Source: Calothrix brevissima NIES-22 | GTDB taxonomy: Bacteria; Cyanobacteriota; Cyanobacteriia; Cyanobacteriales; Nostocaceae | Length of the DNA stretch: 64,000 nucleotides | Direction of reading: 5' to 3' | Assembly: GCF_002367995.1 (NCBI RefSeq) | Contig: NZ_AP018207.1 | Span: forward strand, 2,773,083 to 2,837,082 | In this document: positions 31,528-59,571 of the stretch, in pieces | Layout: the number at the start of each line of letters is the position of its first letter | How positions within the stretch are numbered: position 1 is the stretch's first letter | Program-made: the position numbers and the translations under genes | Notes under the pieces: model-generated | What the model saw: the letters and a program-made list of their open reading frames with translations, nothing else | Database searches by the model: none | Told to the model about the DNA's origin: nothing

Positions 31528-34500
31528 TTACAACGGTAGGTGGATAGCAAATATAGTACCCTCACCTAATTTAGAAGTTACCTCTATTAATCCTTCATGC
31601 TTTTCTTCAACGATTTGTTTAGCTATAGCCAACCCTAAGCCAGTACCTTTACCAACACTTTTAGTAGTAAATAAATGGTCAAAAATCTTTTGTTTTACTT
31701 CTTCACTCATACCTTTACCATTGTCAGCAATGGCAATCTTAACGAGAGCGGTTTCTACGGAAGTTGTCACGATAATGCGGTTAGGATTAGCTTTAATTTC
31801 GTCAAAACTACATCCATGATTTGATTCCTCTAAGGCATCAATAGCGTTCGCCAAAATGTTCATGAATACCTGATTTAATTGACCAGGAAAACATTCTATC
31901 TGGGGTAAATTACCGTAATGAGTTATTACCTTAATCGCGGGACGTTGTTCGTTAGCTTTAAGACGATGTTTGAGAATTAAGATGGTGCTATCAATGCCTT
32001 CATGAATATTAAATGGTACTTTGTAATCTTTATCAGCACGGGAGAAAGTGCGTAGGGAATTGCTGATATTTTTTAAGCGATCGCAAGCCATTGTCATAGA
32101 ATCCAGCATTTTAGGCAGGTCTTCTATGGCATATTCCAAATCAATTTCTACCTCATGGTCGAGAATTTCTTCAGTCTTATCGCTGAAAGTCTCTTGATAG
32201 ATTTTTAAATGTTCAATAATATCAGCAAAGGTGGGTTGAGCTTGTTTAAGACTAGCTACAATAAAGCCCAAAGGATTATTCATTTCGTGGGCGACACCAG
32301 CGACTAAGTTACCCAAGGCGGACATTTTTTCACTTTGAATGATTTGTAATTGGGCTTGTTGCAAAGCCAGTTCAGCTTGTTTGCGATCGCTAATATCTAA
32401 CAATAGTCCATCCCAAATTAACGTGCCATCAACAAGTTTTTCTATTCGTGATTCCCCGTGAATCCACTTAATAATTCCAGAGGGTGTAATAATTCGCCCC
32501 TCCCACTGCCAAGGAGTTAAGGTTTGCGCTGAATTTGCAATGGACTGACGATGAGATTCAGCATCTTCTGGATGCGTCAGGTCTATGATGATCTGCACAT
32601 TGGCGATCGCTTCAGCAGCAGTGATTTCATAGAGGTCATAACAGTCGCTACTCATGTAAGGCATTGACACCGAACCATCGGTTGCCATGATAAATTGATA
32701 CACCACCCCAGGAACATTATCTACTAGATGATGAAAACGGGATTGAGCAGTTTTTAACTCATTGAGCGATTGCTCTAACTGTTGGCTGTATTCCTGAGAA
32801 AGTTGATAAAGTCGGGCATTTTCCAGAGAAATAGCAGCTTGAGCGCAAAGTAAATTGAATAGTTCGACGCGATCGCTGGTAAACGCCCTCATTACTAAAT
32901 TATTTTCTAGATATAAAATCCCCAGTAATTTACCTTGATGCAAAATCGGGTTGCACAAGATACTTTGAGGCTGCTGACGGATAATATAGGGGTCATTAGC
33001 AAAGGTGTTATCTGCGGTTGCATCCAGCAGTACCACAGTCTGTTGACTATGCTTGACTTTGTAAATCAGCTTGTGGGGAATATCTTGACTGTCTGCAATG
33101 GGAAGACTTTGTAAAACAATTGGTTGCGTTATTTGGGTAATTGCGCCTTGAATTAATAGATGATTGTCTTGCAGCAGCATTAACACACATTTATCAGCCC
33201 CAGCAGTTTCTATCACGATTCTCAGTAAAGATGAAAGCAGTTTTTCTAGTTCGATTTCACCTGAGATAGTCTGAGATGCTTTGAGAATTGCAGTTAAATC
33301 TAGAGTATCTGAGACACTACTGCTAGAACTAGAAGACGTGACACTCCCCAAGGGGAAGATAGTTTCGTTAGTGGAAACAACAGAACGGCTTTGCTGTAAT
33401 ATGGGGGCGAGTAGTTGGGGATAACGTTTTTCTAAGTCGGCAACTTTAGCTTTTGCACCCCATTTTTCGTAACAATAGTAGGCTTCTTGGATATAACCTG
33501 CGGCGAATTTTTGTTTTCCCCATTCGAGGCAGAATTTACCTGCAAGTTCGTTTGCTAAGGCTTTTTCTTGAAGATAGCCATTGACTTCAGCAAGAGAAAT
33601 AGCACTATCGAACAGTTCAATTGCTTCTGTTTTATGTCCTAATAAAACGCTTAAAACTGCATTCACGAGATCGTACTTATGAGCAAAGTTTTCCGGACAA
33701 CTAGCTGCCCATAAACTCAGTTGCGCTTGGTTTGATTTAACTTTTTGGATGTAACTATTGTCTAAACCTAAAGCATGAACCCGGCAGTATTCAGCTATAG
33801 CAATAGATTGATAGAAATTGATAGCTGCAACCTGATATTTTCCAGTAATTGTACCAATGAGGTCTTCAGCCCCCTGAGCCGATTCCAATGCCTCCTCATA
33901 GCGTCCGTAAAAACATAAAATTTTAGTTTTTAGGAGCAAATAATGGCAAATTGCATAATCACTGTTGTTGAGCCTACATACTTCAAGATGCTGCTGCTCA
34001 GTTGGGATATCAAGAGCAGAACTAGCTGTAAGTTCAGCAAGTGCCATTTTTAGTCCAGAGAGTACATCCACAGGAAGCTGATAGTTAAGTTTCTTGGCAC
34101 AAAATTCTAGATATTCCGGAAGATTTTGCTGAATTTCTAATAGGCTTTCTCCTGCATAAAATGAATTGAGCAGCTTGTACATCAAAAGATTACCTGAATA
34201 AACCATCTCCCCAGACTGTAGCCCAGCCACTAATCCTTGATCGAAAATAGGTATCGAGCAACGCAAGGGACGCACCCAGGAAAGCAAATTATTCCCCAGC
34301 ATATAGTATGCTTTGCATAAATTATCTGCTTGTTTAAATCGTTTAGCTAAACTTTCTGCCAGGACTCCAAATTCATAGCCAGATTGATAGTTGCTCTGAT
34401 AAAATCCGAGATACATTCCATAGGCTGAAAATCCGTTTCCTGATTCAGCTACTACGCCAAAATTGAGAGATACTGAAACCATCGATAAGGCGACGATAAA

Positions 34501-37296: not shown

Positions 37297-37324
37297 ATTG
37301 CGCTCATCTGATATTTTCTCAATC

Positions 37325-37334
37325 TAGTATTCCC
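37325..37334 (-). promoter_or_regulatory. Conserved leader motif GGGAATACTA, gene 1
   Basis: Ten bases ending 28 nt upstream of the gene 1 ATG. The adjoining spacer is of the type with ...GATGTCTAAATTTATCTTTAAAGT, also found upstream of gene 5. Confidence 0.6.
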
Positions 37335-37370
37335 GGATGTCTAAATTTATCTTTAAAGTCAAGCTAAAAT

Positions 37371-40300
37371 TTACACAGGAATTTCAATCGTGAATTCAGT
37401 ACCTTCTCCTGGTGCGGAAATACAACTTAACTTACCCCGATGTTTTTCTACCACAATCGAATAGCTAGTTGAAAGTCCCAAGCCAGTACCGCTACCTACG
37501 GGTTTTGTCGTAAAAAATGGATTAAATACCTGATTTTGCACCGACTGACTCATCCCTATACCGTTATCTGCAATGCGAATAATGATAGTTTTTGTTTCAG
37601 TTAATTCTGTCTGAATTTTAATAGTTGGTTGGCAATTTTTATCTGATGTTTCTAAGGCATCAATAGCATTGTTGATGATATTCATAAACACCTGATTGAG
37701 AGCCGATGCATAACAATTAACTAAAGGCAATAATCCATATTGTTTGCTGACTAGAATTTCTGGACGTTTACTATTAGTCTGAAGTCGATGCTGCAAAATT
37801 AATAATGTGCTTTCTAAACCAGAGTGAATGTCTACTTTTTTAATTTCTGATTCATCCAAGCGAGAAAAATTTCGCAGTGACAGCACTATTTGCCGGATAC
37901 GTTCTGCTCCCACTTTCATGGAAGATAGGACATTTGGTAAATCATCTAATATAAACTTTAGGTCAATATCAGCAATCTTTTTGTCAATTTCTGGTAACGC
38001 TTGCGGATAAATTGACTGATATAAATGATTTAACTCTATTAAAGATGTGATATATTCATCTGTTGCTGCTAAGTTGCCATAGATAAAATTAATCGGATTA
38101 TTAATTTCATGGGCAATTCCCGCAACTAATTGTCCTAAACTGGACATTTTCTCAGCTTGAATTAGTTGAGATTGAGTTGAATAAAGTTGATTAAGTGTTG
38201 ATTCTAACTGAGTGGCTTTTGCTGTTAATTCCTGGGTACGTTCTGCTACTTTTTGCTCTAAATTGTGGGAATAATTCTCTAATTGATGATAAAGGTTGGC
38301 ATTTTCTAGAGAAATTGCCGCTTGAGTGCAGAGTAAATTTATTATTTCAATACGCTCCCTTGTAAACGCTCCCAATGTGACATTATTTTCTAAATACAAA
38401 ATGCCAATTAATTTGCCTTGGTTGAGAACTGGCGTACAGAAAATACTTTTGGGTTTATGGTGTCGAATATAAGGATCGGCTACCAAATTTGGCTCGACTA
38501 CAGCATTTTCCACAACAGCCGCAACCAAAGTATTTTTAACTCGATTAATTAGGCTAATAGATACTATGTCTTCACAAGGCAGAGATTGTAAAATTATGGC
38601 TGATTGTTGCAGTTGGTATAATGCCTCAATTACCCAACAATTATCTTTCGGTATGAGTAACGCACATTTATCGGCTCCAGCACTTTCCAAAATTACTTGA
38701 AGTAAAGTTGAGAGTAATTTCTCTAACTCAATTTCACGGGAAAGTGATTGAAAGGCTTTAATAATAGTGGCTAAATCAAGGGCTTGTGAGAGGCTATGAT
38801 TGCTGAGAGAGGAACTTTGGGCTGTGTGAGATGAGGTAGAAATAATTGTTTCTGTGGGTTTGAAAGTCGGTTGTTGTTTGTGCAAAATTGATAGCAGTAA
38901 TTGGGGATAGCGGCGTTCTAAATCGATGACTTTGGCTTTTGCACCCCAACGGGAATAACAGTAATAAGCCTCCATCATGTAAGTTTGAGCAATTTTTGTT
39001 TTCCCCCAATCAAGATAAAATTTAGCAGCCAATTCATTAGCTAAGGCTTCTTCGTTGAAAAATTGGTTAGTTTTAGCTAGGGTAATGGCTTGTTCGTAAT
39101 GTTCCATTGCCCCTAATTTATCACCAGCAACTCGCAACTTTTCTGCTTCTACTAAATGCCATTTGTTTAAATAATTCATCGGCGCATCTTGCGCCCACTG
39201 GTAAAGAGTTTGTTGATGGCTTTCGACTTCGGCGAGAATTTCCTCTATTTGTGTGGAAACAAGTGCTAGGCGGGTGAGAGCAGCATAGCAATGGAAAATA
39301 GGCACAAAAATTATTCCTGACACTGCCATTAAATAGGACTTAACTTGGGTGATATAGTCAAGAGCAGCCTGATAATTGCTAAAAAAATAGGCAAGGAATA
39401 GTTTATAGCTATAAGCAAAGGCAAATGCAGTGAGATCCCTATCTTGCTTGTGCTTTGGAAACATCACTGTTTCATCGTAGAAAATGCCAATTAAGCGATC
39501 GGGTTGGCTCACTGTTACTTGAAACTGCTCGATTGTTTGCTGTACCATCTGCAAATAAGCCAGTGCTGAATCTTGTTTTACCTGAACGAGAGCAGCATTG
39601 TAAGCAGGTAATTCCGCCGCCAAGCTATGCAATTCTGCACCAGCGAATAACCCCGTTAGCGCATAACCTTCTATGCTGTAGCCAGCGTAGAGAAAATCAC
39701 CGGTTTCCATCCCCGCCATGTAGCTTTCTTTCAGGATGACTCGCGCTATTGATATGGCTTGTCGGCGATGTTGAATGAACGAGCTAAACAGGTTAAAAGT
39801 GATGCACTTCATACCTTGAGCATTCAACTTTTCTAGTAATGAAAGTGCTAATTTACCAAACTCATAACCGATTTCGACTTCGCCAAAAAAGGCACACATC
39901 ACCATCCCATGAATTGCATAGCCAGGGATTGAGGCGGGAGTATTGCCAAACTCCAGGGATAAGCGTACCATAGTTGCGCCGAGAATGGGCATTAAACCAG
40001 GTTGTCCCAGTAACACTGGTGGAAATAACATACTTAATATCTGGATTGCAGCTTGAGCTTGAGGTTCGCTGATTAGGGGTAAGTCAATCAGTGCAGCAAT
40101 TTCTCGGTTTTGGAGTTGCTGGTTGACTACGGCTAAGGCTTTACCAATCTGTGTTTCATCTACTTGGCTGGGTAATTCGACTCCCAGTTGGGCTAAAGCT
40201 TCTCTACCCACTGCGATCGCTGCTAATATTTGGCTACTAGCTGTGAGTGCGGCGATTTGAATTTCGTAGATTTTAACTTTGTCAACAATGCTTTGTGCTT

Positions 40301-42785
40301 GCTGTAACACGAATGTAGCAAGTTGTTCCATAGCGTCAAAATCACTATTTAAATAACTGGCTTCTGTTGCAGCTATATACAAATTCAAAGCTAATTTATA
40401 TTGACTTTGCCAACAATTAATCTCTAATAACTCAATTCCCGTTTGGAAATACTCTCTTGCGGCGGTGTATGCGGTGGAATTTCGAGCTTTATTCCCAGCT
40501 TTTAAGTTGAGTATTGCTAAGGTTTCACGTTCTTGTGGTTGATTAATTAATGCTTGTCCTTGATTCAAATGTCCCACAATATCAAACAGTTTTTCTTCTC
40601 TTTCTATTTCGGAAAATTTTTGCAGCAGTAGTTTTCCAATTTTCAGATGGGTTACTTGCTTTTTGTCATCAGGAATCAGGGAATAGGCTGCTTGTTGAAC
40701 TCGGTCATGTAAAAATCGGTAAACTGGATTAGCTGCTGCATAAGCATCTGATATATTATCAGATTTAACAAATAATTTATAGATTTTTGTATGAGGAATA
40801 ATCAGCCCTTCTTGCAATGATTTCCATAAATCATCCGCAGTTGCTTCTAGCGATTGTTCAGAAATAATCGCCAATGTTTGCAAATCAAACTGTGCCCCAA
40901 TACAAGCTGCTAGCTTGAGAATATTTTGAGTTGTCTGTGGTAATTTCTGCAATTGTAGTGACATAAATTCTACCACATCATCAGTAATTGCTAAAGCTTT
41001 AATTTGAACAATATCGCACTGCCAATTGCGAGATGCAAAGTCAAAGGTAATTAGTTGCTCATTATTTAATGCTTTGAGAAACTGGGTGGAAAAAAAAGGA
41101 TTACCTGTGGTTTTTTGATAGATTAATGTTGTTAAAGGTTGGGCTAGTAATAATTCGCACTTGATTGTATCTGCAACTAACTGATTGAGATTAATTTCAT
41201 TTAATGGTTTGAGGATGATTTTATTGACAACTGCTCCAATTTTTTCTAGCTCATTTATCGCCAGGATAAATGAGTGAGTTGGGGATACTTCATTATCACG
41301 ATATGCACCCAAAAGCAATAAATATTTTGTATCTTGCATCAACAGTTGTAACAATTTCAGCGATGCGGAATCTGCCCATTGCAAGTCATCTAAAAACATC
41401 ACTAAAGGATGTTCTTGATTAGTAAACACTTGCACAAACTTTTGTAAGAGCAAATTAAATCTATTTTCCGCAGCGTTTCCTGATAGTTCTGTGGCTGGCG
41501 GTTGCTCGCCAATAATATGTTCTAATTCGGGAATTACGTCAATTAAAACTTGTCCATTTTCGCCCACAACATTCAGAATTTTGGTTTTCCAAATTTGCAA
41601 TTGTGCATCAGATTCTGAGAGGAATTGACCCATTAAATCACGGAATGCTTGCACAAAAGCACTGAAGGGAATGTTTTGTTGAAATTGGTCATATTTACCT
41701 TTAATAAAATAGCCGCGTTGTCTAACAATTGGTTTGTGTACTTCGTTAACAATGGCTGTTTTCCCAATTCCAGAAAATCCAGCTACTAGCATCATTTCTG
41801 TTGCGCCAAGGCTGACTCTATCAAATGCTTCTAGTAGGGTTTTAACTTCAGCTTTTCTGCCATATAATTTATCAGGAATAATGAAGCGATCGCACAAATC
41901 CCTACTAGCAATTTCAAAGTCTCCAATCTCGCCATTTTCTTTTAGCTGAATTAGACATTTTTCTAAATCAAATTTTAACCCCAATGCACTCTGATATCTA
42001 TCTTCAGCATTTTTTGCCATCAACTTGCTGACGATATCTGAGATAAATAAGGGGATATCTGGATTAATTTCATGTGCTAAAGGTGCTGTTTTAGCAATAT
42101 GAGCATGTACCAATTCCATCGCCTCATTAGACAAAAATGGTAATTCTCCTGTGAGTAGTTCATAAAAAGTTACACCCAAGGAATAAAAATCTGTGCGATA
42201 GTCAATTGGGCGATTCATTCTCCCTGTTTGTTCTGGAGATATATAAGCAAGTGTTCCTTCTAATACGTTGGGATTGACTAATGTTTGAGTTTCTCTGGGT
42301 AATAATGATGCAATACTAAAGTCAATTAATTTAACTTGTTTAGTTTCGGGGTTAATTAATATATTGCTGGGTTTGATATCTTTATGAATAATTCGTTCAT
42401 GGTAGAGTAAGTCCAGGATGTCACAGAGTGCGATCGCTATTACTAAAAACTCTTCTAGAGATACAACATGCTGATATTTACTGAAATAATCCTTGAGAGA
42501 AATTCCCCCAAAGTCTTCCATAACTAACATATAGCCATTTTGGAATGATTCGAGGCTATAGGTTTGGATAATCAGAGGTGAGTTGAGATTTTTCCCAATA
42601 GTGTATTGATTGCGAAATAACAACAATTCGCTAAAGCTGGGATAGGGATTTTTCAGCAGTTTGATAACTACTGGTGTTGAGTTGCTTTCTCTGACTACGC
42701 GATAAACTAGTGTTCGGGAGCCATCATAGAGTTGTTCGCTGATGCGATATCCGGGAATCTTCACAAGAGTGTCAATCATAATCAC
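37371..42785 (-). CDS. Hybrid Ser/Thr kinase-AAA-GAF-histidine kinase, array gene 2 (divergent, no PAS)
   Basis: 1804 residues. The most distant paralogue: it starts MIMIDTLVKIPG, and the spacer motif is 23 nt from the start in place of 28. Kinase: Lys42, HKDIKPSN at ~134, DFS; AAA Walker A GFSGIGKTA ~336, Walker B MFLDDLQWADS. GAF at ~1354-1505 is followed directly by a long coiled-coil linker (KVAERTQELTAKATQLESTLNQLY) and an H-box of a different subtype, HEINNPINFIYGN (His1559). HATPase has NAIDAL, ADNGIGMS and GSGTGLGL. Its HisKA subtype and linker show that the C-terminal module is not of the same origin as those of genes 1 and 3-5, or has diverged much longer. The poly-Ser linker is looser (SSHTAQSSSLSNHSL). 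Confidence 0.95.
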   Translation of the reverse strand: MIMIDTLVKIPGYRISEQLYDGSRTLVYRVVRESNSTPVVIKLLKNPYPSFSELLLFRNQYTIGKNLNSPLIIQTYSLESFQNGYMLVMEDFGGISLKDYFSKYQHVVSLEEFLVIAIALCDILDLLYHERIIHKDIKPSNILINPETKQVKLIDFSIASLLPRETQTLVNPNVLEGTLAYISPEQTGRMNRPIDYRTDFYSLGVTFYELLTGELPFLSNEAMELVHAHIAKTAPLAHEINPDIPLFISDIVSKLMAKNAEDRYQSALGLKFDLEKCLIQLKENGEIGDFEIASRDLCDRFIIPDKLYGRKAEVKTLLEAFDRVSLGATEMMLVAGFSGIGKTAIVNEVHKPIVRQRGYFIKGKYDQFQQNIPFSAFVQAFRDLMGQFLSESDAQLQIWKTKILNVVGENGQVLIDVIPELEHIIGEQPPATELSGNAAENRFNLLLQKFVQVFTNQEHPLVMFLDDLQWADSASLKLLQLLMQDTKYLLLLGAYRDNEVSPTHSFILAINELEKIGAVVNKIILKPLNEINLNQLVADTIKCELLLAQPLTTLIYQKTTGNPFFSTQFLKALNNEQLITFDFASRNWQCDIVQIKALAITDDVVEFMSLQLQKLPQTTQNILKLAACIGAQFDLQTLAIISEQSLEATADDLWKSLQEGLIIPHTKIYKLFVKSDNISDAYAAANPVYRFLHDRVQQAAYSLIPDDKKQVTHLKIGKLLLQKFSEIEREEKLFDIVGHLNQGQALINQPQERETLAILNLKAGNKARNSTAYTAAREYFQTGIELLEINCWQSQYKLALNLYIAATEASYLNSDFDAMEQLATFVLQQAQSIVDKVKIYEIQIAALTASSQILAAIAVGREALAQLGVELPSQVDETQIGKALAVVNQQLQNREIAALIDLPLISEPQAQAAIQILSMLFPPVLLGQPGLMPILGATMVRLSLEFGNTPASIPGYAIHGMVMCAFFGEVEIGYEFGKLALSLLEKLNAQGMKCITFNLFSSFIQHRRQAISIARVILKESYMAGMETGDFLYAGYSIEGYALTGLFAGAELHSLAAELPAYNAALVQVKQDSALAYLQMVQQTIEQFQVTVSQPDRLIGIFYDETVMFPKHKQDRDLTAFAFAYSYKLFLAYFFSNYQAALDYITQVKSYLMAVSGIIFVPIFHCYAALTRLALVSTQIEEILAEVESHQQTLYQWAQDAPMNYLNKWHLVEAEKLRVAGDKLGAMEHYEQAITLAKTNQFFNEEALANELAAKFYLDWGKTKIAQTYMMEAYYCYSRWGAKAKVIDLERRYPQLLLSILHKQQPTFKPTETIISTSSHTAQSSSLSNHSLSQALDLATIIKAFQSLSREIELEKLLSTLLQVILESAGADKCALLIPKDNCWVIEALYQLQQSAIILQSLPCEDIVSISLINRVKNTLVAAVVENAVVEPNLVADPYIRHHKPKSIFCTPVLNQGKLIGILYLENNVTLGAFTRERIEIINLLCTQAAISLENANLYHQLENYSHNLEQKVAERTQELTAKATQLESTLNQLYSTQSQLIQAEKMSSLGQLVAGIAHEINNPINFIYGNLAATDEYITSLIELNHLYQSIYPQALPEIDKKIADIDLKFILDDLPNVLSSMKVGAERIRQIVLSLRNFSRLDESEIKKVDIHSGLESTLLILQHRLQTNSKRPEILVSKQYGLLPLVNCYASALNQVFMNIINNAIDALETSDKNCQPTIKIQTELTETKTIIIRIADNGIGMSQSVQNQVFNPFFTTKPVGSGTGLGLSTSYSIVVEKHRGKLSCISAPGEGTEFTIEIPV

Positions 42786-48643: not shown

Positions 48644-48671
48644 ATTGTGCTCATCTAATATTTTCTCAATC

Positions 48672-48681: not shown

Positions 48682-48704
48682 AGATAGATAAGTAGAGCTA
48701 CAAT

Positions 48705-51700
48705 TTACAAGGGAATCTCAATGATAAATTCAGTACCTTCTCCTAAAGCTGAGTTACATTTCAATTTTCCAGCGTGAGTTTCTTCGACAATTTGTTTGGC
48801 TATAGCTAATCCTAAACCTGTGCCTTTCCCGACAGCTTTAGTAGTAAATAAATGGTCAAATATTTTGTGTTTTACTTCTTCGCTCATCCCTTTACCATTA
48901 TCAGCAATAGAGATTTTCACGTATTTATCTGCTATTGATGTGGTAATTGTAATGGAGTGAGGATGAGCTTGAATTTCTGCAAAAGTCCGTCCGTGATTCG
49001 ATTCATCTAATGCATCAATGGCATTAGCTAAAATATTCATAAATACCTGATTTAATTGCCCAGGAAAACATTCAACCTGGGGTAAATCACAGTATTTAGT
49101 TGTTACTTCAATCGCGGGACGTTGTTCGTTAGCTTTGAGACGATGTTTGAGAATTAAAATTGTGCTATCAATGCCTTCGTGAATATTAAATGGCACTTTA
49201 TAATCTCTATCAGCACGGGAGAATGTGCGTAGGGAAGTGCTGATATTTTTTAACCTATCACAAGCCATGACCATTGCATTCATCATCTTCGGCAAGTCTT
49301 CTATGGTATAGTCTAGGTCAATTTCTGATTCATGGTCTTGAATTTCATCACTCTTGTCTGGAAAAGTTTGTTGATACAATTTGATGTGTTCACTCAAATC
49401 GGCGATTGTTGGTTTAGCTTGTTTGAGAGTTGCTGCAATAAAGCCCAAAGGATTATTCATTTCGTGGGCGACACCAGCGACTAAGTTACCCAAGGCAGAC
49501 ATTTTTTCACTTTGCACGATTTGTAATTGAGCGTTTTGTAAGTTGTCTAATGCCTGTTCTAGCTGTTGGCTGTATTCTTGAGAACGTTGATAAAGTTGGG
49601 CATTTTCAAGAGAAATGGCGGCTTGGGTGCAGATGAGGTTGAGTAGTTCGATGCGATCGCTCGTAAACGCTCCCTTTGCTAAGTTATTTTCTAGGTATAA
49701 AATGCCCAGCAATTTACCTTGATGCAAAATCGGACTGCACAAAATACTTTGAGGCTGTTGACGGATAATATAGGGATCGTTGGCGAAAGTGATATCTGCG
49801 CTTGCATCCAGTAGCACTAGAGTTTGTTGATTGTTTTTGACTTTGTTAATCAGCTTATGGGGAATATCTTGACTGTCTGCAATAGCAAAACTTTGCAACA
49901 CAATGGGTTGTGTCCCTTGGGTAATTGCGCCTTGAATTAATAGATGATTGTCTTGTAGGAGCATTAACACACATTTATCAGCCCCAGCATTTTCAATCAC
50001 GATTCTTAGTAAGGATGAAAGCAGTTTTTCTAGTTCGATTTCCCCTGAGATAGATTGAGACGCTTTGAAAATTGCTGTTAAATCTAGGGTATTTGAAACA
50101 CTGCTGCTAGAACTGGAAGTACTGGTAGATGTGACAGTTCCCAAGGTGAAGATAGTTTCGTTAGTGGAAAAAAGCGAACGGCTTTGCTGTAATATTGGCG
50201 CAAGTAATTGGGGATAGCGGTTTTCTAAGTCAGCAACTTTGGTTTTTGCTCCCCAACGGGCATAACAATAATATGCTTCCTGCATATAACCTGCGGCGAC
50301 TTTCTCTTTTTCCCAGTTGAGATAAAATTTGGCAGTTATTTCGTTGGCGAGGGCTTCTTCTTGAATGTAGCCGTTAGCTTTGGCTTGAGAAATCGCTCGG
50401 TCATAAAATTCTATAGCTGCGGTTTTATCACCTAAAACTCGATGCTTTTCCGCTTCCACTAAATAGAATCGATGCAACTGATTCATGGGTGCATAATTTG
50501 CCCACTGTTCCAGTGTCTCTTGATTTTTTGCTACCTGCTGTAAAGTCTGCTGTTGTTGTGTGGGTGAAGCGGTAGGATATAAAGCAAGTTGCACTAAAGA
50601 ATCATACCAATTGAGCAATGAAATGTTAGTCGTTGCATATCCTGCAACAGAGTATGGTTTAGCTTTAATCGCACATTCCACTGCCAAATCTAGGACTTCA
50701 AACAGATAGCAAAGCGTCAGTTTGTTGACCCAAAAATTCCATAAACCATTGCCATCATTAGCTTGCTCATAGAATAGCAGCATTGACTTTTCATCGTAGG
50801 CTGTACCAACTAATTCCCAAGGTGTAGTTGTTGGCTCGATTAAATTCAATACCACTTGGTGATAAAGATTGGTATAGTTCAGTGCGCTTTGTTGGTGAAT
50901 TTTGACTAAAGCTGCACTGTAAATTGCCAATTCATTCGCTAATTTAGTTAATTCTTGACCGGCGATATAAGCTTGACAGCAATAAACGTAGGCAGCGTAA
51001 CCAGCAAAAGCCAAATCCCCCGTATCCAAACCACTGGTATAGGTTTTGATTAATGGCTTGAGGGTGGCTGTAAGAGGTTCTTGCCAGTGGCTAATCAAAT
51101 GATAAACGACAACAAGGATAAAGGCTTCGTATTCTCGATCGCGAAACTTGGATAGGACTTGCAATGCTAACTGACCAAATTCATAACCTGTGGGGATAGT
51201 TTGTATCTGCCCAGAAAGCATGAGTCCATACCCTGAGTAAGCTACGGCAGAAGCAGAAGTATTACCGTATTTTACAGACAGAGCAACTTCCTTGAGTATC
51301 ACTAAGCGATGAAGCTGCGGTTTTGCCAGATAAGCAGGAGTCGTGACTTTAACTAAGACACGCAAGGCGGCTTGTAATTCCGGCTGCTGCATTTGTGGTA
51401 AATCAGCTAACTCAGCTACTGTTTTACCACTGAGGAGAGCTTGATTTTCCTGTAAAGCTAACATAAAATCTTCGTCTGTCGGTTCTGGGGGAAACTCAAT
51501 GCCAATCGGCTGCAAAAATTGCATGGCTGTATCAATAGCTGCCAAGAACTTACCTTGGATTGTGTAGGCTTCTATTTTGACTTCGTAGACTTTGGCTGTA
51601 TCAATGACTGCTTTGGCTTGTTGTAAAACTTCCTGGACAAAGTTTTCCATTAAGTCCAACTCGCCACTGAGATTGCTGGCTTCGGTAGCTTCGTTGTATA

Positions 51701-54101
51701 AGCTTAAGGTGAAATCATAGTCAGATTGCCAAGGGTTGCTGGGGAGTAAATCAATACTGATTTTTAGGTAAGCTAGTGCAGCTTTATAGGCGGTTGAGGC
51801 TTTGGCTTTTTTCCCGGCGATCAAATTTAAGCGTGATAGTTGATGGCGTTCTTGTGGTTCATGGAATTGTTCAATGCCAATATTTAACTGATTAGCGATC
51901 GCAAAAACCTGTTCCTCTATTTCTGCTTCTGGTGTGTTTGACCACAATAAACGACCGATTTTGACATGGGTTGTCTGTTTTTGTGCTTCTGGGATTAATG
52001 AGTAAGCCGCTTGTTGGACGCGATCGTGTATAAATTTGTAGGCAACAGTTTGTTGATTTGCCGATATATTTACTAACTTTTCTTGCCCGACATAAAACTT
52101 ATAAACATCACCAATTGGTAAGATTAATCCTTCTTGTAATGCTTTCCATAAACAAGTTGCTGTTTCAATTTCTGATTGTGATGAAACAATGGCTAAAGTT
52201 GCTAAATCAAAAGAATTACCAATACAAGCAGCTAATTGCAATACTTCTTGAGTTGATGGCGGTAATTTTTGCAATTGCAAGCTCATAAAAGCCACAACGT
52301 CATCTGTCACCGATTGCATTGTCACTTGGGAAATATCACATTGCCAACAGCCTAACTCAAAATCAAATTGAATCAGCCCATCTTGATGTAATGCCTTGAG
52401 AAATTGGGTGACAAAAAATGGATTACCTTGCGTTTTTTGAGAAATTAATACAGAAAGATTCCATGCCAATTTTTCTGGACATTTAAGGGTATTAGCAACT
52501 AATTGATTTACTTTTGATTGACTGAGTGGTGCTAAAGTAATTGTGTTAATTGTGGCTTGTGTCTTTTGAATTTCACTCAAGGTCAATAATAATGGATGTC
52601 CAGGATGGACTTCGTTATCGCGATATGCACCAATAATGAAAAGATGACCTGTATCAGCCATTAATAGCTGCATTAACTTGAGTGATGCGGAGTCAGTCCA
52701 TTGTAAATCATCCAGGAATATTACTAAGGGATGTTCTTTGCTGCTAAAGACTTGGGTGAATTTTTGAAATAATAGATTAAATCTATTTTGGGCGGCTGTT
52801 CCTGATAATTCTATCGCTGGTGTTTGTTGACCAATAATTTTTTCTAATTCGGGGATAACGTCAAGAATTACTTGTCCATTTTCCCCAACAGCCTCTAATA
52901 TTTTATGTTTCCATTTTTCTAGTTGGGTATCGCTTTCAGTTAATAATTGCCCCATTAAATCACGGAATGCTTGGACAAAAGCAGAGAAGGGAATATTGCG
53001 ATTAAATTGGTCAAATTTACCTTTAATAAAATAGCCGCGTTGTCTAACAATTGGTTTATGTACTTCGTTGACAACCACAGTTTTACCAATTCCAGAGAAA
53101 CCAGCGACCAGCATCATTTCTGTTGCACCAAAGCTGACTCTTTCAAATGCTTCTAGGAGGGTTTGAACTTCACCTTCCCTGCCATATAATTTATCGGGAA
53201 TGATGAAGCGATCGCACAAATCCCTTTGTCCAATCTCGAAACTTGGAATTTCCCCAGTTTCTCTTAACTGAGTTAAACATTTTTCTAAATCAAATTTCAA
53301 GCCCAACGCACTCTGATACCTATCTTCAGCATTTTTCGCCATCAACTTGCTGAAGATTTTTGAGATAGCTAAAGGGATATTTGGATGAATTTCATGTGCT
53401 AAAGATGGGGTTTTCGCAATGTGAGAATGTACCAATTCCATCGCATCATTAGATGAGAATGGTAACTCGCCTGTCAGCAATTCATAGAAAGTCACACCTA
53501 AAGAATAAAAATCTGTGCGGTAGTCAATCCCCCGATTCATTCTCCCGGTTTGTTCTGGAGATATATAAGCCAGTGTTCCTTCTAAAACATTGGGATTGAT
53601 TAATGTTTGGGTTTCTCTGGGTAATAATGATGCAATACTAAAGTCAATTAATTTTATTTGTTTAGTTTCGGGATTAATTAAGATATTGCTGGGCTTGATA
53701 TCTTTGTGGATAATCCGCTCGTGGTAGAGTAAGTCTAAGATGTCACAGAGTGCGATCGCTATGACTAAAAATTCCTCTAGAGATACAACATGCTGATTTT
53801 TCGTAAAATAGTCCTTGAGAGAAATTCCCCCAAAATCTTCCATAACTAACATATAGCCATTTTGCAGAGGTTCAAGGCTATAGGTTTGGATAATCAGGGG
53901 TGATGTGAGATTTTTACCAATGGTGTACTGGTTGCGAAATAACAACATTTCGCTAAAGCTGGGATAAGGATTTTTCAGCAGTTTGATCACTACTGCTACT
54001 GAATCCCTTTCTCTGACTGCGCGATAAACTATTGTTCTCGAACCGTTGTAGAGTTCTTCATTAATGCGATATCCGGGAATACTGACAAGATTGCTAACCA
54101 T
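48705..54101 (-). CDS. Hybrid Ser/Thr kinase-AAA-GAF-histidine kinase, array gene 4 (no PAS)
   Basis: 1798 residues, shortest of the five. Kinase domain nearly identical to that of gene 3 (ESDSVPVVTK is RDSVAVVIK here), with HKDIKPSN and DFS. AAA Walker A GFSGIGKTV; Walker B region FLDDLQWTDS has Thr in place of Ala. GAF at ~1357-1507, then a short linker (ALDNLQNAQLQIVQSEKM) straight into HisKA with no PAS; His1546 in HEMNNPLG. Residues around the H-box (KQAKPTIADLSEHIKLYQQTFPDKSDEIQD) differ from genes 3 and 5, but the following HATPase is near-identical to theirs. The patchwork of identity with gene 3 (N-terminus and middle) and gene 5 (linker) fits repeated recombination. Confidence 0.95.
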   Translation of the reverse strand: MVSNLVSIPGYRINEELYNGSRTIVYRAVRERDSVAVVIKLLKNPYPSFSEMLLFRNQYTIGKNLTSPLIIQTYSLEPLQNGYMLVMEDFGGISLKDYFTKNQHVVSLEEFLVIAIALCDILDLLYHERIIHKDIKPSNILINPETKQIKLIDFSIASLLPRETQTLINPNVLEGTLAYISPEQTGRMNRGIDYRTDFYSLGVTFYELLTGELPFSSNDAMELVHSHIAKTPSLAHEIHPNIPLAISKIFSKLMAKNAEDRYQSALGLKFDLEKCLTQLRETGEIPSFEIGQRDLCDRFIIPDKLYGREGEVQTLLEAFERVSFGATEMMLVAGFSGIGKTVVVNEVHKPIVRQRGYFIKGKFDQFNRNIPFSAFVQAFRDLMGQLLTESDTQLEKWKHKILEAVGENGQVILDVIPELEKIIGQQTPAIELSGTAAQNRFNLLFQKFTQVFSSKEHPLVIFLDDLQWTDSASLKLMQLLMADTGHLFIIGAYRDNEVHPGHPLLLTLSEIQKTQATINTITLAPLSQSKVNQLVANTLKCPEKLAWNLSVLISQKTQGNPFFVTQFLKALHQDGLIQFDFELGCWQCDISQVTMQSVTDDVVAFMSLQLQKLPPSTQEVLQLAACIGNSFDLATLAIVSSQSEIETATCLWKALQEGLILPIGDVYKFYVGQEKLVNISANQQTVAYKFIHDRVQQAAYSLIPEAQKQTTHVKIGRLLWSNTPEAEIEEQVFAIANQLNIGIEQFHEPQERHQLSRLNLIAGKKAKASTAYKAALAYLKISIDLLPSNPWQSDYDFTLSLYNEATEASNLSGELDLMENFVQEVLQQAKAVIDTAKVYEVKIEAYTIQGKFLAAIDTAMQFLQPIGIEFPPEPTDEDFMLALQENQALLSGKTVAELADLPQMQQPELQAALRVLVKVTTPAYLAKPQLHRLVILKEVALSVKYGNTSASAVAYSGYGLMLSGQIQTIPTGYEFGQLALQVLSKFRDREYEAFILVVVYHLISHWQEPLTATLKPLIKTYTSGLDTGDLAFAGYAAYVYCCQAYIAGQELTKLANELAIYSAALVKIHQQSALNYTNLYHQVVLNLIEPTTTPWELVGTAYDEKSMLLFYEQANDGNGLWNFWVNKLTLCYLFEVLDLAVECAIKAKPYSVAGYATTNISLLNWYDSLVQLALYPTASPTQQQQTLQQVAKNQETLEQWANYAPMNQLHRFYLVEAEKHRVLGDKTAAIEFYDRAISQAKANGYIQEEALANEITAKFYLNWEKEKVAAGYMQEAYYCYARWGAKTKVADLENRYPQLLAPILQQSRSLFSTNETIFTLGTVTSTSTSSSSSSVSNTLDLTAIFKASQSISGEIELEKLLSSLLRIVIENAGADKCVLMLLQDNHLLIQGAITQGTQPIVLQSFAIADSQDIPHKLINKVKNNQQTLVLLDASADITFANDPYIIRQQPQSILCSPILHQGKLLGILYLENNLAKGAFTSDRIELLNLICTQAAISLENAQLYQRSQEYSQQLEQALDNLQNAQLQIVQSEKMSALGNLVAGVAHEMNNPLGFIAATLKQAKPTIADLSEHIKLYQQTFPDKSDEIQDHESEIDLDYTIEDLPKMMNAMVMACDRLKNISTSLRTFSRADRDYKVPFNIHEGIDSTILILKHRLKANEQRPAIEVTTKYCDLPQVECFPGQLNQVFMNILANAIDALDESNHGRTFAEIQAHPHSITITTSIADKYVKISIADNGKGMSEEVKHKIFDHLFTTKAVGKGTGLGLAIAKQIVEETHAGKLKCNSALGEGTEFIIEIPL

Positions 54102-54129
54102 ATTGTGCTCATCTGATATTTTCTCACTC

Positions 54130-54139
54130 TAGTATTCCC
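54130..54139 (-). promoter_or_regulatory. Conserved leader motif GGGAATACTA, gene 4
   Basis: Decamer 28 nt before the ATG; differs from the gene 3 leader in two or three bases of the whole spacer. Confidence 0.6.
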
Positions 54140-54162
54140 AGATAGATAAGTAGAGCTACAAT

Positions 54163-57100
54163 TTACAAGGGAACCTCAATGATAAATTCAGTACCTTCAC
54201 CCAGAATAGATTGGCAATCCAACTTACCACCGTGAGTTTCTTCGACAATTTGTTTAGCTATAGCCAAACCCAAACCTGTACCTTTCCCGACAGCTTTAGT
54301 AGTAAATAAATGGTCAAATATTTTGTGTTTTACTTCTTCGCTCATCCCTTTACCATTATCAGCAATAGAGATTTTCACGTATTTATCTGCTATTGATGTG
54401 GTAATTGTAATGGAGTTAGGATGAGCTTGAATTTCTGCAAAAGTCCGTCCGTGATTCGATTCATCTAATGCGTCAATGGCATTAGCTAAAATATTCATAA
54501 ATACCTGATTTAATTGCCCAGGAAAACATTCAACTTGGGGTAAATCACAGTATTTAGTTGTTACTTCAATCGCGGGACGTTGTTCGTTAGCTTTGAGACG
54601 ATGTTTGAGAATTAAAATTGTGCTATCAATGCCTTCATGAAGATTAAATGGCACTTTATAATCTCTATCAGCACGGGAGAATGTGCGTAGGGAAGTGCTG
54701 ATATTTTTTAACCTATCACAAGCCATTGTCATAGAATCGAGCATTTTAGGCAAGTCTTCTATGCTATATTCCAAATCAATTTCTGACTCGTGGTCGAGGA
54801 TTTCTTCAGTTTTATCGGGTAAAGTTTCTTGATAGATTTTCAAATGTTCAATAATATCAGTAAAGGTGGGTTTAGTTTGTTCGAGAGTAGCATAAATAAA
54901 ACCAAGAGGATTATTCATTTCATGAGCGACACCAGCGACTAAGTTACCCAAGGCGGACATTTTTTCACTTTGGACGATTTGTAGTTGAGCATTTTGCAAG
55001 TTGTCTAAAGCTTGTTCTAATTCTTGGGCATATTCCTGAGAACGTTCATACAATCGCGCATTTTCTAGAGAAATGGCGGCTTGGGTGCAGAGTAGGTTGA
55101 GTAGTTCAATGCGATCGCTTGTAAACGCCCCCTTTGTTAAATTATTTTCTAGATATAAAATCCCCAGCAATTTACCTTGATTCAAAATTGGGCTACACAA
55201 AATACTCTTGGGCTGTTGACGGGTAATATAGGGGTCATTAGCGAAGGTGATATCTGCGGTTGCATCCAATAAGACAAAAGTCTGTTGATTGTTTTTGACT
55301 TTGTAAATCAGCTTGTGGGGAATTTCTTGACTGTCTTCAACGGGAAGACTTTGCAGGACAATGGGTTGTGTTCCTTGGGTAATTGCGCCTTGAATTAATA
55401 GATGATTTTCTTGCAGGAGGATTAACACAGATTTATCAGCACCAGCATTTTCGATGATGATGCTAAGTAACGATGCAAGCAGTTTTTCTAGTTCGATTTC
55501 CCCTGAGATAGATTGAGATGCTGTGAGAATTGCTTTTAAATCTAGAGTATCGGAAATACTGCTGCTAGAAGCCGAAGAACTGCTTTTTGTGACAGTCCCC
55601 AAGGTAAAGATAGTTTCGTTAGTGGAAACAACAGAACGACTTTGCTGTAATATGGGGGCGAGTAATTGGGAATAGCGGGTTTCTAAGTCGGCGACTTTGG
55701 CTTTGGCTCCCCATCGAGCATAACAATAATATGCTTCCTGCATATAACCTGCGGCGACTTTCTCTTTTTCCCAGTTGAGATAGAATTTAGCAGCAAGTTC
55801 ATTAGCTAGTGCTTCTTCTTGAATGTAGCCGTTGGCTTTGGCTTCTTTAATGGCGCGATCGTAAAATTCTATGGCTGCTATTTTATCATCTAAAACTCGA
55901 TGCTTTTCCGCTTCCACTAAATAGAAGCGATGCAACTGATTCATGGGTGCATAATTTGCCCACTGTTCCATTATCTGTTGATTTTCTGCTACCTGCTGTA
56001 AAATCTGCTGTTGTTCTGTGGATGATGCAGCAGGATATAAAGCGAGTTGTACTAAAGAATCATACCAGTTGAGCAATGGGATGTTAGTCATTGCATATCC
56101 TAAGCCGGAAGCTTGACATTTTTTAGCTTTAATTGCATATTCCACTGCCAAATCTAGGACTTGAAACAGATAACAAAGCATCAGTTTGTTGACACAAAAA
56201 TGCCATAAACTATTAGGATCGCTAGCTTGTTCATTTAATAACAGCATTGACTTTTCATCGTAGGCTGTACCAACTAATTCCCAAGGTGTAGCTGTTGGCT
56301 CGATTAAATTCAAGACAATTTGGTGATAAATATTGTGATAATTTAGTGTCGCTTGTTTGTGAATTTTGGCTAAAGCTGCACCATAAATCGTCAACTCACT
56401 CGCTAGTGTAGTTAATTCTTGACCAGCAACATAAGCGTGGTAGCAATAAACAGATGCACCGTGGCAAGCAAAAGCTAAGTCCCCAATGTCTAAACCTCTG
56501 GCATAGGCTTGCAGTAAGGGCTTGAGGGTAGCGGTGAGCGGTTCTTTCCAGTGGGTGATAAAACCATGAACAACTACCAGGACTCTGGCTTCATATTCAC
56601 GATCGCAAAATTTGGAAAGCATTTGCAAAGCTAACTGACCAAATTCATAACCAGGGAGGATACTGTTTGATTGACCACTCAGCATCAGTCCATACCCTGA
56701 GTAAAAGAAGGCACTGGCTGAGGTGTTGCCGTATTTGATGGATAGAGACAGTTCCTTCGGCACTAGCAAGCGATGGAGTTCTGGTTTTCCGAGATAAGCA
56801 GGAGTGTCTACTTTAACTAAGACACGCAGGGCGGCGCGTAATTCCGGCTGCTGCATTTCTGGTAAATCGGCTAACTGCGCTATTGTTTTATCACTGAGGA
56901 GAGCTTGAATTTCCTGTAAACCCAGAAAGAAATCTTGATCTGTGGGTTCTGAGGGAAACTCAATGCCAATCGGTCGCAAAAATTGCATGGCTGTATCAAT
57001 AGCTGCCAAGAATTTACTTTGAATCGCGTAGGCTTCAATTTTGACTTCGTAGACTTTGGCTGTATCAATAATTGCTTTGGCTTGTTGTAAAACTTCCTGG

Positions 57101-59571
57101 GCAAAGTTTTCCATTAAATCCAGTTCACCACTGAGGTAACTGGTTTCGGTAGCTTCGTTATACAAGCTTAAGGTGAAATCATAGTCAGATTGCCAAGGTT
57201 TGGTGGGGAGTAACTCAATACTGATTTTCAGGTAAGCTAGTGCAGCTTTGTAGGCGGTTGAGGCTTTAGCTTTTTTCCCAGCGATGAAATTTAAGCGAGA
57301 GAGTTGATGGCGTTCTTGTGGTTCATGGAATTGTTCAATGCCAATATTTAACTGATTGGCGATCGCAAAAACCTGTTCCTCTATTGCTGCTTCTGGGGTA
57401 TTTGACCACAATAAACGACCAATTTTGACATGGGTTGTCTGTTTTTGGTCTTCTGGGATTAATGAGTAAGCCGCTTGTTGGACGCGATCGTGCAGGAATT
57501 TATAAACAAAAATTTCCCCATTGTCTTGATTTACACCTTGGTTTTCTGTACCCACAAAAAACTTATAAATCTCTGTCTGCGGTAAAATTAAGCCTGACTG
57601 CAAAGCATTCCATAAACAAGTTGCAGTTTCTACTATAGATTCTTGACCAACTAAAGCTAATGTTTTTAAATCAAATTCATTCCCAATACAAGCTGCCAGT
57701 TTTAAAATCTCTTGGGTGGCTGTTGGTAGCTTTTGCAATTGCTGCGCCATAAATTCGACCACATCATCGGTCAAAGCCGCCTCTCGCACTTGCACAATAT
57801 CACACTGCCAATGCCCTGCGCCCCAGTCAAAGGTAATTAACTGGTCTTGATGTAATGCTTTCAAAAACTGGGTGGCAAAGAAGGGATTACCCTGAGTTTT
57901 CTGTATGACCCGTTCTGTCAGTGGTTTGACTACAGATGTGGGAGCATGAAGGGTATCGGCAATCAGATGATTGAGACTGGTAAAATTCAGGGGTTGTAGG
58001 GTAATGGTGTGGATTTTTGCCCCTGTTTTCTCCATGTCATTCAGGGTTAGCATTAACGGGTGGGCGGCAAATACCTCATTATCCCGATACGCACCTAACA
58101 GTAATAAACAGCCCGTTTGCGACTCAGACATTAACACTTGAATCAAATTCAATGAAGCTGAATCCGCCCATTGCAAATCATCCACAAACATCACTAACGG
58201 ATGTGCGGGGATGCTAAAGACTTGAATAAACTTTTGAAACAACAAATTAAACCGATTTTGGGCGGCGGTTCCTGATAATTGCGGTGCTGGGGGTTGTGCG
58301 CCAATAATCTGTTCGAGTTCAGGAATCAGTTCTACAATCACTTGAGCATTGTCTCCCAGTGCTGCTGAAATCTGATTTTTCCAGTGTTGCAATTGGGTAT
58401 CGCTTTCGGTTAATAATTGCCCCATCAAATCCCGGAAGGCTTGCACAAAGGCAGAAAAGGGAATATTGCGATTAAATTGGTCGAATTTGCCCTTAATAAA
58501 ATAACCGCGTTGTCTAACAATGGGTTTATGCACTTCGTTCACAACCGCAGTTTTCCCAATTCCGGAAAACCCAGCCACCAGCATCATCTCTGTTGTACCC
58601 TGGCTGACTCTTTCAAATGCTTCTAGGAGGGTTTGAACTTCGCCTTCCCTGCCATATAATTTATCGGGAATGATAAAGCGATCGCACAAATCCCTTTGTC
58701 CAATTTCAAACTCTCCAATCTCACCAGTTTCTCTTAACTGAATCAGACATTTTTCTAAATCAAATTTTAACCCCAACGCACTCTGATACCTATCTTCAGC
58801 ATTTTTCGCCATCAGTTTACTGACGATTTTTGAGAGTATCGAGGGAATATCTGGACGAATTTCAGCTATTAATGGCGGAATTTTCGCAAGATGAGAATGC
58901 ACCAATTCCATCGCATCATGAGATGAAAATGGTAATTCTCCTGTGAGCAGTTCATAAAAAGTCACACCCAGGGAGTAAAAATCTGTGCGGTAGTCAATCC
59001 CCCGATTCATTCTCCCGGTTTGTTCTGGAGATATATAAGCCAGTGTTCCTTCTAAAACATTGGGGTTAACTAGGGTTTGAGTTTCTCTGGGTAATAAGGA
59101 TGCAATACTAAAGTCGATTAATTTAACTTGCTTAGTTTCAGGATTAATTAAGATATTGCTGGGTTTGATATCTTTATGAATAATCCGCTCATGATAGAGT
59201 AAATCTAAGGTGTCACAGAGTGCGATCGCTATTACTAAAAACTCTTCTAAAGATGCGACACGCTGATTTTTCGTAAAATAATCCTTGAGAGAAATTCCCC
59301 CAAAGTCTTCCATAACTAACATATAGCCATTTTGCAGAGGTTCAAGGCTATAGGTTTGAATAATCAGAGGTGAGTTGAGATTTTTACCAATGGTGTACTG
59401 ATTGCGAAATAACAACAGTTCATGAAAATTGGGATAAGGATTTTTCAGTAGTTTGATAACTACCGCTACTGAGTCACTTTCTCTGACTGCGCGATAAACT
59501 ATTGTTCTCAAACCATTGTAGAGTTCTTCATTAATGCGATATCCAGGAATACTGACAAGAGTGCTAACCAT
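54163..59571 (-). CDS. Hybrid Ser/Thr kinase-AAA-GAF-histidine kinase, array gene 5, first in transcription order (no PAS)
   Basis: 1802 residues. The glycine-loop region reads YNGLRTIVYRA (Ser to Leu against the others). Kinase HKDIKPSN and DFS; AAA Walker A GFSGIGKTA, Walker B VMFVDDLQWADS. The AAA C-terminal part (RVIQKTQGNPFFATQFLKAL, LTDDVVEFMAQQLQKLP) differs from gene 4, but from about residue 690 (EDQKQTTHVKIGRLLWSNTPEA) it joins closely the sequence of genes 3 and 4. GAF ~1361-1511; HisKA His1550 in HEMNNPLGFIYATLEQ. As the gene furthest upstream it should carry the main promoter; the upstream region is itself a relic of an array spacer. Confidence 0.95.
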   Translation of the reverse strand: MVSTLVSIPGYRINEELYNGLRTIVYRAVRESDSVAVVIKLLKNPYPNFHELLLFRNQYTIGKNLNSPLIIQTYSLEPLQNGYMLVMEDFGGISLKDYFTKNQRVASLEEFLVIAIALCDTLDLLYHERIIHKDIKPSNILINPETKQVKLIDFSIASLLPRETQTLVNPNVLEGTLAYISPEQTGRMNRGIDYRTDFYSLGVTFYELLTGELPFSSHDAMELVHSHLAKIPPLIAEIRPDIPSILSKIVSKLMAKNAEDRYQSALGLKFDLEKCLIQLRETGEIGEFEIGQRDLCDRFIIPDKLYGREGEVQTLLEAFERVSQGTTEMMLVAGFSGIGKTAVVNEVHKPIVRQRGYFIKGKFDQFNRNIPFSAFVQAFRDLMGQLLTESDTQLQHWKNQISAALGDNAQVIVELIPELEQIIGAQPPAPQLSGTAAQNRFNLLFQKFIQVFSIPAHPLVMFVDDLQWADSASLNLIQVLMSESQTGCLLLLGAYRDNEVFAAHPLMLTLNDMEKTGAKIHTITLQPLNFTSLNHLIADTLHAPTSVVKPLTERVIQKTQGNPFFATQFLKALHQDQLITFDWGAGHWQCDIVQVREAALTDDVVEFMAQQLQKLPTATQEILKLAACIGNEFDLKTLALVGQESIVETATCLWNALQSGLILPQTEIYKFFVGTENQGVNQDNGEIFVYKFLHDRVQQAAYSLIPEDQKQTTHVKIGRLLWSNTPEAAIEEQVFAIANQLNIGIEQFHEPQERHQLSRLNFIAGKKAKASTAYKAALAYLKISIELLPTKPWQSDYDFTLSLYNEATETSYLSGELDLMENFAQEVLQQAKAIIDTAKVYEVKIEAYAIQSKFLAAIDTAMQFLRPIGIEFPSEPTDQDFFLGLQEIQALLSDKTIAQLADLPEMQQPELRAALRVLVKVDTPAYLGKPELHRLLVPKELSLSIKYGNTSASAFFYSGYGLMLSGQSNSILPGYEFGQLALQMLSKFCDREYEARVLVVVHGFITHWKEPLTATLKPLLQAYARGLDIGDLAFACHGASVYCYHAYVAGQELTTLASELTIYGAALAKIHKQATLNYHNIYHQIVLNLIEPTATPWELVGTAYDEKSMLLLNEQASDPNSLWHFCVNKLMLCYLFQVLDLAVEYAIKAKKCQASGLGYAMTNIPLLNWYDSLVQLALYPAASSTEQQQILQQVAENQQIMEQWANYAPMNQLHRFYLVEAEKHRVLDDKIAAIEFYDRAIKEAKANGYIQEEALANELAAKFYLNWEKEKVAAGYMQEAYYCYARWGAKAKVADLETRYSQLLAPILQQSRSVVSTNETIFTLGTVTKSSSSASSSSISDTLDLKAILTASQSISGEIELEKLLASLLSIIIENAGADKSVLILLQENHLLIQGAITQGTQPIVLQSLPVEDSQEIPHKLIYKVKNNQQTFVLLDATADITFANDPYITRQQPKSILCSPILNQGKLLGILYLENNLTKGAFTSDRIELLNLLCTQAAISLENARLYERSQEYAQELEQALDNLQNAQLQIVQSEKMSALGNLVAGVAHEMNNPLGFIYATLEQTKPTFTDIIEHLKIYQETLPDKTEEILDHESEIDLEYSIEDLPKMLDSMTMACDRLKNISTSLRTFSRADRDYKVPFNLHEGIDSTILILKHRLKANEQRPAIEVTTKYCDLPQVECFPGQLNQVFMNILANAIDALDESNHGRTFAEIQAHPNSITITTSIADKYVKISIADNGKGMSEEVKHKIFDHLFTTKAVGKGTGLGLAIAKQIVEETHGGKLDCQSILGEGTEFIIEVPL

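Follow-up and report, generated by a model that had tools for sequence, protein, structure and literature searches.

How five genes for giant kinases come to stand side by side, and whether all of their parts share one history, is the question raised by a locus of Calothrix brevissima NIES-22. The window, that is, the whole stretch of DNA that was analyzed (64,000 nt of contig NZ_AP018207.1, positions 2,773,083 to 2,837,082), contains five intact head-to-tail ORFs on the minus strand, between 31528 and 59571, which are separated by spacers of 61, 61, 68 and 74 bp and were numbered K1 to K5 in reading direction (Table 1). The encoded proteins have one domain order, Ser/Thr kinase, AAA_16, helical middle, GAF and histidine kinase, with an additional PAS in two of them. 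Pkinase, AAA_16, GAF and HATPase_c scored above the Pfam cut-offs in all five proteins, as did PAS_3 in K3 and K5; HisKA exceeded its cut-off only in K4, was below it in K2, K3 and K5, and was not listed for K1 at E 0.001. The H-box G.LVAG.AHE.NNP is found in every copy, and simple patterns for the kinase Lys, HKD, DFS, Walker A and B, N and G boxes were matched throughout. HKDIKPSN and KLIDFS occur in all five, indicating KD rather than RD kinases in which DFG is changed to DFS, and the Walker A (GFSGIGKT) and Walker B (DDLQW.DS) motifs, likewise common to all, are those expected of the P-loop ATPase of a STAND NTPase. The called start codon of K4 is GTG, and an ATG two codons in gives a better alignment with the neighboring genes.

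With a Ser/Thr kinase, GAF and HisKA/HATPase in a single protein, and with the KD-type kinase and DFS, the array proteins belong by their motifs to the known HstK/cbSTKIII family of dual kinases, and both activities are predicted from the intact motifs. According to the part of PMC2176072 available, this family of filamentous cyanobacteria includes HstK (Alr2258) and an adjacent, co-transcribed pair, Alr0709/Alr0710, has a KD-type kinase with DFG changed to DFS as its hallmarks, and has already been proposed to undergo shuffling of GAF and HisKA domains. The first-pass annotation had described five hybrid kinases of HstK type in an uninterrupted block, and its coordinates, lengths, spacers and modules were borne out by the ORFs, Pfam matches and motifs. 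Long, similar copies commonly carry a risk of misassembly, and the row could in principle consist of repeats falsely joined; this we regard as hardly conceivable, given that the copies differ at 8.6–42% of bases overall, that all five frames are open, that the assembly comprises 9 contigs, and that comparable rows are present in other assemblies.

Table 1. Positions in the window of the array genes, their exchanged parts, the upstream elements and the flanking genes.
Feature	Position	Strand	Remarks
K1, HstK-type dual kinase	54163..59571	-	1802 aa; first array gene; ATPase and middle nearest G002_A3
K2, HstK-type dual kinase	48705..54101	-	1798 aa; kinase and middle sister to those of K3
K3, HstK-type dual kinase with PAS	42854..48643	-	1929 aa; nearest relatives change at about residue 700
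K4, HstK-type dual kinase	37371..42785	-	1804 aa; kinase end array-type; middle and tail common to G002_A5 and G002_A2
K5, HstK-type dual kinase with PAS	31528..37296	-	1922 aa; apparently chimeric: ends array-type, middle from another HstK lineage
K5 putative sensor cassette, about residues 690-1230	33607..35229	-	70-92% per 60-residue window to G007_6784k / G004_C7; 10-57% to four array genes
K3 middle, about residues 700-1230	44954..46546	-	K1/G002_A3-like, behind a G001_B3-like ATPase region
K1 middle, about residues 700-1230	55882..57474	-	All-helical in predicted model
Upstream element before K1, TGGGAATACTAGA	59598..59610	-	
Upstream element before K2	54128..54140	-	
Upstream element before K3	48670..48682	-	
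Upstream element before K4, TGGGAATACTAAA	42807..42819	-	
Upstream element before K5, CGGGAATACTAGA	37323..37335	-	One mismatch
Peroxiredoxin (AhpC-TSA), left flank of insertion site	30750..31244	+	
Remnant of ~208-aa gene, right flank of insertion site	59665..60090	+	Beside K1; counterpart open in some relatives
Class-V aminotransferase, right flank	60088..61254	+	

A structure was predicted for residues 296–1336 of K1 from an alignment with 54 family sequences (mean pLDDT 82, pTM 0.62). In the model, the ATPase gives way to an extended series of helices, and the middle is all-helical, with pLDDT values mostly above 85. Its top Foldseek match in the PDB was 6mfv, by its title a STAND protein with a tetratricopeptide sensor (E 4e-10, with low TM-scores of 0.31/0.43), followed by Cdc6/ORC ATPases and, lower down, by plant resistosome and apoptosome chains. 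A sequence search of the PDB with the ATPase and middle of K1 gave no match at E 0.1, and no NCBIfam model reached its cut-off among the matches listed (the best 25 of 80 for K5, of 64 for K4 and of 78 for K1). The helical repeat that lies behind the ATPase of STAND NTPases thus has a counterpart in the K1 model, as judged from the 6mfv match with its low TM-scores, and the middle is predicted to form a TPR-like superhelix behind a STAND-type ATPase; it is probably the sensor, a role that is putative. Across the 54 sequences, conservation is 0.79 at residues 696–720 and 0.74–0.77 at 1246–1295, and falls to 0.39–0.65 in the bins between, so that two conserved blocks bracket a variable part.

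The similarity among the five genes changes along their length. In 75-codon windows, K1, K2 and K3 share 58–100% DNA identity with each other, and K4 and K5 are 81–93% identical to these three over the kinase, and 35–70% from about residue 525 to 1200. Kinase dS is 0.14–0.52 in all ten array pairs, while middle dS is at least 1.5 or saturated in the seven pairs that involve K4 or K5, and with synonymous sites so different, selection on the protein alone is not the explanation. By contrast, among eight pairs of orthologues used as controls, in which six scattered genes of the window's genome were compared with relatives, seven stay within about 2.3-fold in dS across domains, and the eighth, a very diverged pair, exceeds this. 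By such comparisons, all five genes derive their N-terminal Ser/Thr kinase from a recent common source, as four of them, K4 being the exception, do their GAF-histidine-kinase end, and the middle (about residues 700–1230) has a different history in K4, in K5 and, set against its own ATPase region, in K3.

The clearest chimera is K5. Its residues 1–300 and about 1260–1922 are array-type, and the middle, over about 540 residues, is 84% identical to that of a non-array gene found in two relatives (G007_6784k and G004_C7). Middle dS against these two genes is 0.56 and 0.54, and in the other regions it ranges from 2.1 to saturation. The K5 ATPase has no near relative in the family set (best 0.73), which makes it likely that exchange occurred more than once or that the source lies outside the sample. 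K3 resembles G001_B3 up to about residue 700 and K1/G002_A3 beyond it, and the changes of relationship, at about 700 in K3 and at about 690 and 1230–1260 in K5, lie close to the conserved blocks at 696–720 and 1246–1295. Runs of identical codons between K1 and K3 (78) and between K2 and K3 (107) were longer than in any of 1000 shuffles; because this test pools domains, part of its signal reflects uneven constraint. Counting against a mosaic reading is K4, for which dS to G002_A5 is even along the whole length (0.34–0.60). Recent swaps are also rare at this depth, since, of the 92 pairs between genomes whose middles are at least 0.70 identical, just 3 were discordant by the set cut-offs, and two of these three represent the K5 event.

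Trees calculated separately for the domains, which the first-pass annotation had proposed as a check, also gave histories that differ by region. In the middle tree, K5 groups with G007_6784k and G004_C7 (support 100), and the AU test rejects the same trio for the tail (p 3.8e-10) and for kinase and tail combined (2.97e-64). For the middle, a grouping of K5 with K1–K3 is rejected (AU 5.3e-91), and so is a single clade of K1–K5 (p 0.00045). The kinase segment alone is less decisive: placing K5 with the middle-donor lineage is not rejected by the AU test (p 0.077, lnL 28.9 lower), and a single K1–K5 clade is weakly rejected (p 0.045), the latter because these kinases mix with those of array genes from G001 and G002.

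The array might instead have arisen when a single gene was duplicated in tandem and its copies diverged in the ordinary way, with the ends kept alike by stronger purifying selection and with no exchange. Local duplication has clearly contributed: K1, K2 and K3 are adjacent and carry one middle type, and the K1–K2 and K2–K3 spacers differ at 2 of 61 bases. Yet dS is several-fold uneven across the domains of a single gene pair (e.g., middle 1.5 to saturated against a kinase value of about 0.45), and the nearest relative of the K5 middle lies outside the array. Plain duplication is therefore contradicted for K4 and K5 by the domain-wise dS and could still explain how K2 and K3 arose; as an account of the whole row it is unlikely. 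We consider it probable that the array is a place where sensor cassettes are exchanged on the dual-kinase chassis of cytoplasmic STAND-type receptors (HstK/cbSTKIII).

Such exchange can be compared between array genes and other members of the family. Using 401 aa from the K1 ATPase region as the query, 14 to 29 family matches were found in each of eight genomes of the genus, the window's genome (G000) included, and a comparison set of 99 proteins was drawn from them: 16/16 matches in G000, 23/26 in G001, 28/29 in G002 and 17/19 in G007, with the rest from genomes of which only some regions were fetched (4/24 in G003, 5/20 in G004, 1/14 in G005 and 5/18 in G006). Three ORFs were left out, a 508-aa piece (G002), an 885-aa piece at a contig end (G003) and one cut duplicate (G001). 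Among within-genome pairs in four genomes, mean identity was 0.862 in the kinase and 0.487 in the middle for 49 array pairs, compared with 0.558 and 0.418 for 552 non-array pairs. When only pairs with a middle identity of 0.35–0.45 are considered, the kinase mean is 0.833 for 23 array pairs versus 0.545 for 383 non-array pairs. The same pattern is clearly repeated in an array from another genus of the cyanobacterial family (G035), where kinase and middle identities are 0.84/0.39 in 15 array pairs versus 0.62/0.39 in 21 other pairs (seven genes outside the array), and where the middle is saturated in 13 of the 15 array pairs at a kinase dS of 0.43–1.12. It recurs more weakly in G032 (0.81/0.46 in 6 array pairs versus 0.69/0.41 in 55 other pairs, with 11 genes outside the array). 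The three array pairs of G012 give 0.81/0.31, and this genome offers no single genes for comparison.

Rows of this kind are not confined to the window. Its genome (9.26 Mb in 9 contigs) has 16 family genes, namely the five described here, a pair at C1:854-866 kb and nine single genes. The first-pass annotation had held that such genes are normally scattered, which agrees with the nine singles and not with the array, the second pair or the arrays of other genomes. Nor is a row of five the rarity it was taken for, since rows of 10, 6, 4, 3 and 3 family ORFs occur in five relatives, three of them interrupted by other genes. The largest, in G002, holds ten family ORFs in about 56 kb (including the 508-aa piece and one cut to 1521 aa), together with one receiver-kinase and one hybrid kinase gene. 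The G001 row has three family ORFs in the first 24 kb of a contig, the second and third separated by three genes, of which the two scanned both encode histidine kinases, one of them bearing a receiver. In other genera of the cyanobacterial family, rows of six (G035), four (G032, with three genes between the second and third) and three (G012) were found; these are three of eight genomes picked from 60 for few contigs and several matches, so the array frequencies are not a census. A further possible triple is indicated in G015 by matches 5.5 and 7.4 kb apart. Among 38 named loci, contig 39 of Nostoc sp. FACHB-110 has five family ORFs, interrupted once by a gap of about 6 kb, contig 8 of FACHB-280 has four, two of them cut by the locus ends, and N. 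linckia z4 has three, one of them cut.

Between the HstK copies of three relatives' rows lie genes for receiver-kinase, hybrid kinase and Cache-HAMP kinase proteins (L040:4092-7539, L043:7950-13071, L187:13224-18620), and the G032 row also holds one for a solute-binding protein. The products of these intervening genes are possible partners, and such genes are absent from the window's array. The earlier statement that no response regulator lies between the genes accordingly holds for the window, and does not extend to the rows of G001, G002 and G032, which hybrid histidine kinase or receiver genes interrupt. At the far end of the ten-member G002 row (L039:9973-12593), an HstK copy is present only as several short ORFs, which is consistent with gene loss in arrays.

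The flanks of the array indicate that it is a newcomer at its position. In all six relatives that carry both flanks on one stretch (G001, G002, G003, G004, G006 and G007), the peroxiredoxin lies 0.4 to 1.7 kb from the aminotransferase side, a distance too small for an array gene, compared with 28.4 kb in the window; G005 has only the right flank on its contig. The synteny check suggested in the first-pass annotation thus finds the array missing at this site in all six relatives that could be checked, and the array therefore arrived at, or moved to, the site in the window's lineage. Beside K1 is the remnant of a gene of about 208 aa, which we take to be Uma2-like. Its counterpart is open in G001, G005 and G006, and no ORF was listed for it in G002 and G007; zero to three small ORFs of this kind are listed at the site in each of five relatives. 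A different gene, of about 250–270 aa, adjoins the G002 and G001 rows and single family genes in G007, G003 and G004. Judged by its N-terminus, it also adjoins the G035 row, the other side of which resembles that of the G002 row. In the window's genome, G005 and G006, the 12–20 kb fetched around this gene contained no family gene. The window's array may have come from the shared site marked by the ~250–270-aa gene.

A short element, TGGGAATACTA, lies about 40 nt ahead of the array gene starts. It is present exactly in 14 of 17 array upstream regions and in 22 of 82 other family upstream regions (one of the 82 entries had no upstream sequence), and with at most one mismatch in 17/17 and 43/82, respectively. 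Each of 50 shuffled motifs occurred in at most three of the 99 regions, and the reversed motif in two. Over the whole genome, the 13-base form has 8 occurrences, 4 of them in the window's array, and the reversed pattern has none. A literature search with the string GGGAATACTA returned no paper on cyanobacteria by title. The region from K1 to the aminotransferase contains no NtcA-type site (GTAN8TAC), of which the window as a whole has 14 (shuffle mean 8.9), and from 48500 to 60100 there are 24 sigma-70-like sites (shuffle mean 32.0) and 7 terminator-like sequences (8.9).

These elements bear on the proposal that the row is a single operon for a coordinated set of sensors, the members of which would form mixed oligomers or cross-phosphorylate. 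Such an arrangement would be compatible with sensor exchange, and the common strand, the short spacers and the co-transcription reported for Alr0709/Alr0710 in the available part of PMC2176072 speak for it. The description of the block as operon-like is not supported, however, by the presence of a separate copy of the element before each array gene and also before scattered family genes. Since each array gene keeps its element, the genes are at least as likely to be controlled separately, if in a similar way, and the operon seems improbable, if somewhat less so than plain duplication. Expression of each gene probably begins at, or is adjusted through, the element that precedes it, a candidate promoter, binding site or leader. 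Duplication carries such elements along, so they are no proof of independent transcription, and read-through may occur.

The element was also seen outside the HstK family. In an EAL-GGDEF gene of the window (27769-30051, plus strand), TGGGAATACTAGA lies within the called 5' end, at 27797-27809. Two relatives align only from residue 19–20, and the true start is therefore probably downstream, in which case the gene shares the HstK upstream element. Another copy directly precedes a 500-aa minus-strand ORF (G000:C1:312988-314520, L183), the start of which resembles an L106 ORF.

In STAND proteins such as MalT, an ATPase switches and oligomerises. By likeness to these, a ligand or partner of an array protein would bind the TPR-like superhelix, upon which the ATPase would switch and oligomerise, and the change would reach both terminal parts, the Ser/Thr kinase on one side and the GAF-histidine kinase on the other. 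Homologous recombination within the conserved blocks would swap the middles, and gene conversion would hold the ends alike. With ends so similar, signals from different inputs probably converge on an overlapping set of output partners, the genes of which lie elsewhere. The arrangement resembles STAND NTPases with TPR sensors (PDB 6mfv) in having an ATPase followed by a TPR-like superhelix, and differs in that a kinase output flanks these parts on either side, the proteins being about 1,800–1,930 aa long.

Plant NLR receptor clusters are also tandem arrays with conserved signalling and variable sensor parts, between which sequence is exchanged. The likeness is one of analogy: the sensor part is not claimed to be homologous, and an immune role here is hypothetical. 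An NLR-like array would recognise phage or other biotic ligands and signal via both kinases, and the STAND-type ATPase with its helical sensor, the resistosome chains among the weaker fold matches and the different middles on like chassis are in keeping with this. Against it, the PADLOC-DB matches listed (the best 25 of 34 for K5, 33 for K4 and 34 for K1) all lie in the kinase domain, at about residues 1–300, none of them being to a defence family outside this generic domain; the Pfam matches of ten flanking proteins include no defence family, and the available parts of PMC2176072 and PMC2442094 report HstK-type proteins in connection with iron, nitrogen and heterocysts. We therefore rate a role in recognising phage or other biotic ligands as very unlikely. 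A broader conjecture, to which we give little weight, sees HstK arrays as a bacterial counterpart of NLR clusters, loci dedicated to generating receptor diversity. The border blocks would serve as recombination joints, scattered family genes would supply new sensors, and conversion would leave the signalling ends interchangeable; the arrays would gain and lose members and change position from one species to the next, perhaps keeping track of biotic ligands.

Returning to sensor exchange on a dual-kinase chassis, what is new is the mosaic anatomy of the array genes; the family, the co-transcribed pair and GAF/HisKA shuffling are already in print. The published HstK/cbSTKIII proteins differ from the present case in the row of five, the exchanged helical middle, the STAND-like ATPase with its TPR-like middle, and the test by synonymous sites. 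The portion of the PMC2176072 text available does not contain the term AAA or treat exchange of the middle, and the titles and abstracts of openly licensed PubMed Central articles that were found described neither HstK arrays with at least three members nor middle or sensor exchange. Trees of the kinase domain alone mislead as to what HstK-type proteins detect. The sensing part, the sharing of output partners within one array and the route to new bacterial sensors become testable, and a poorly understood family of giant bacterial receptors gains an evolutionary logic of like outputs and exchangeable inputs. With the rows of relatives showing the same pattern, such rows in bacteria may be sites where sensors are mixed and matched on one signalling chassis.
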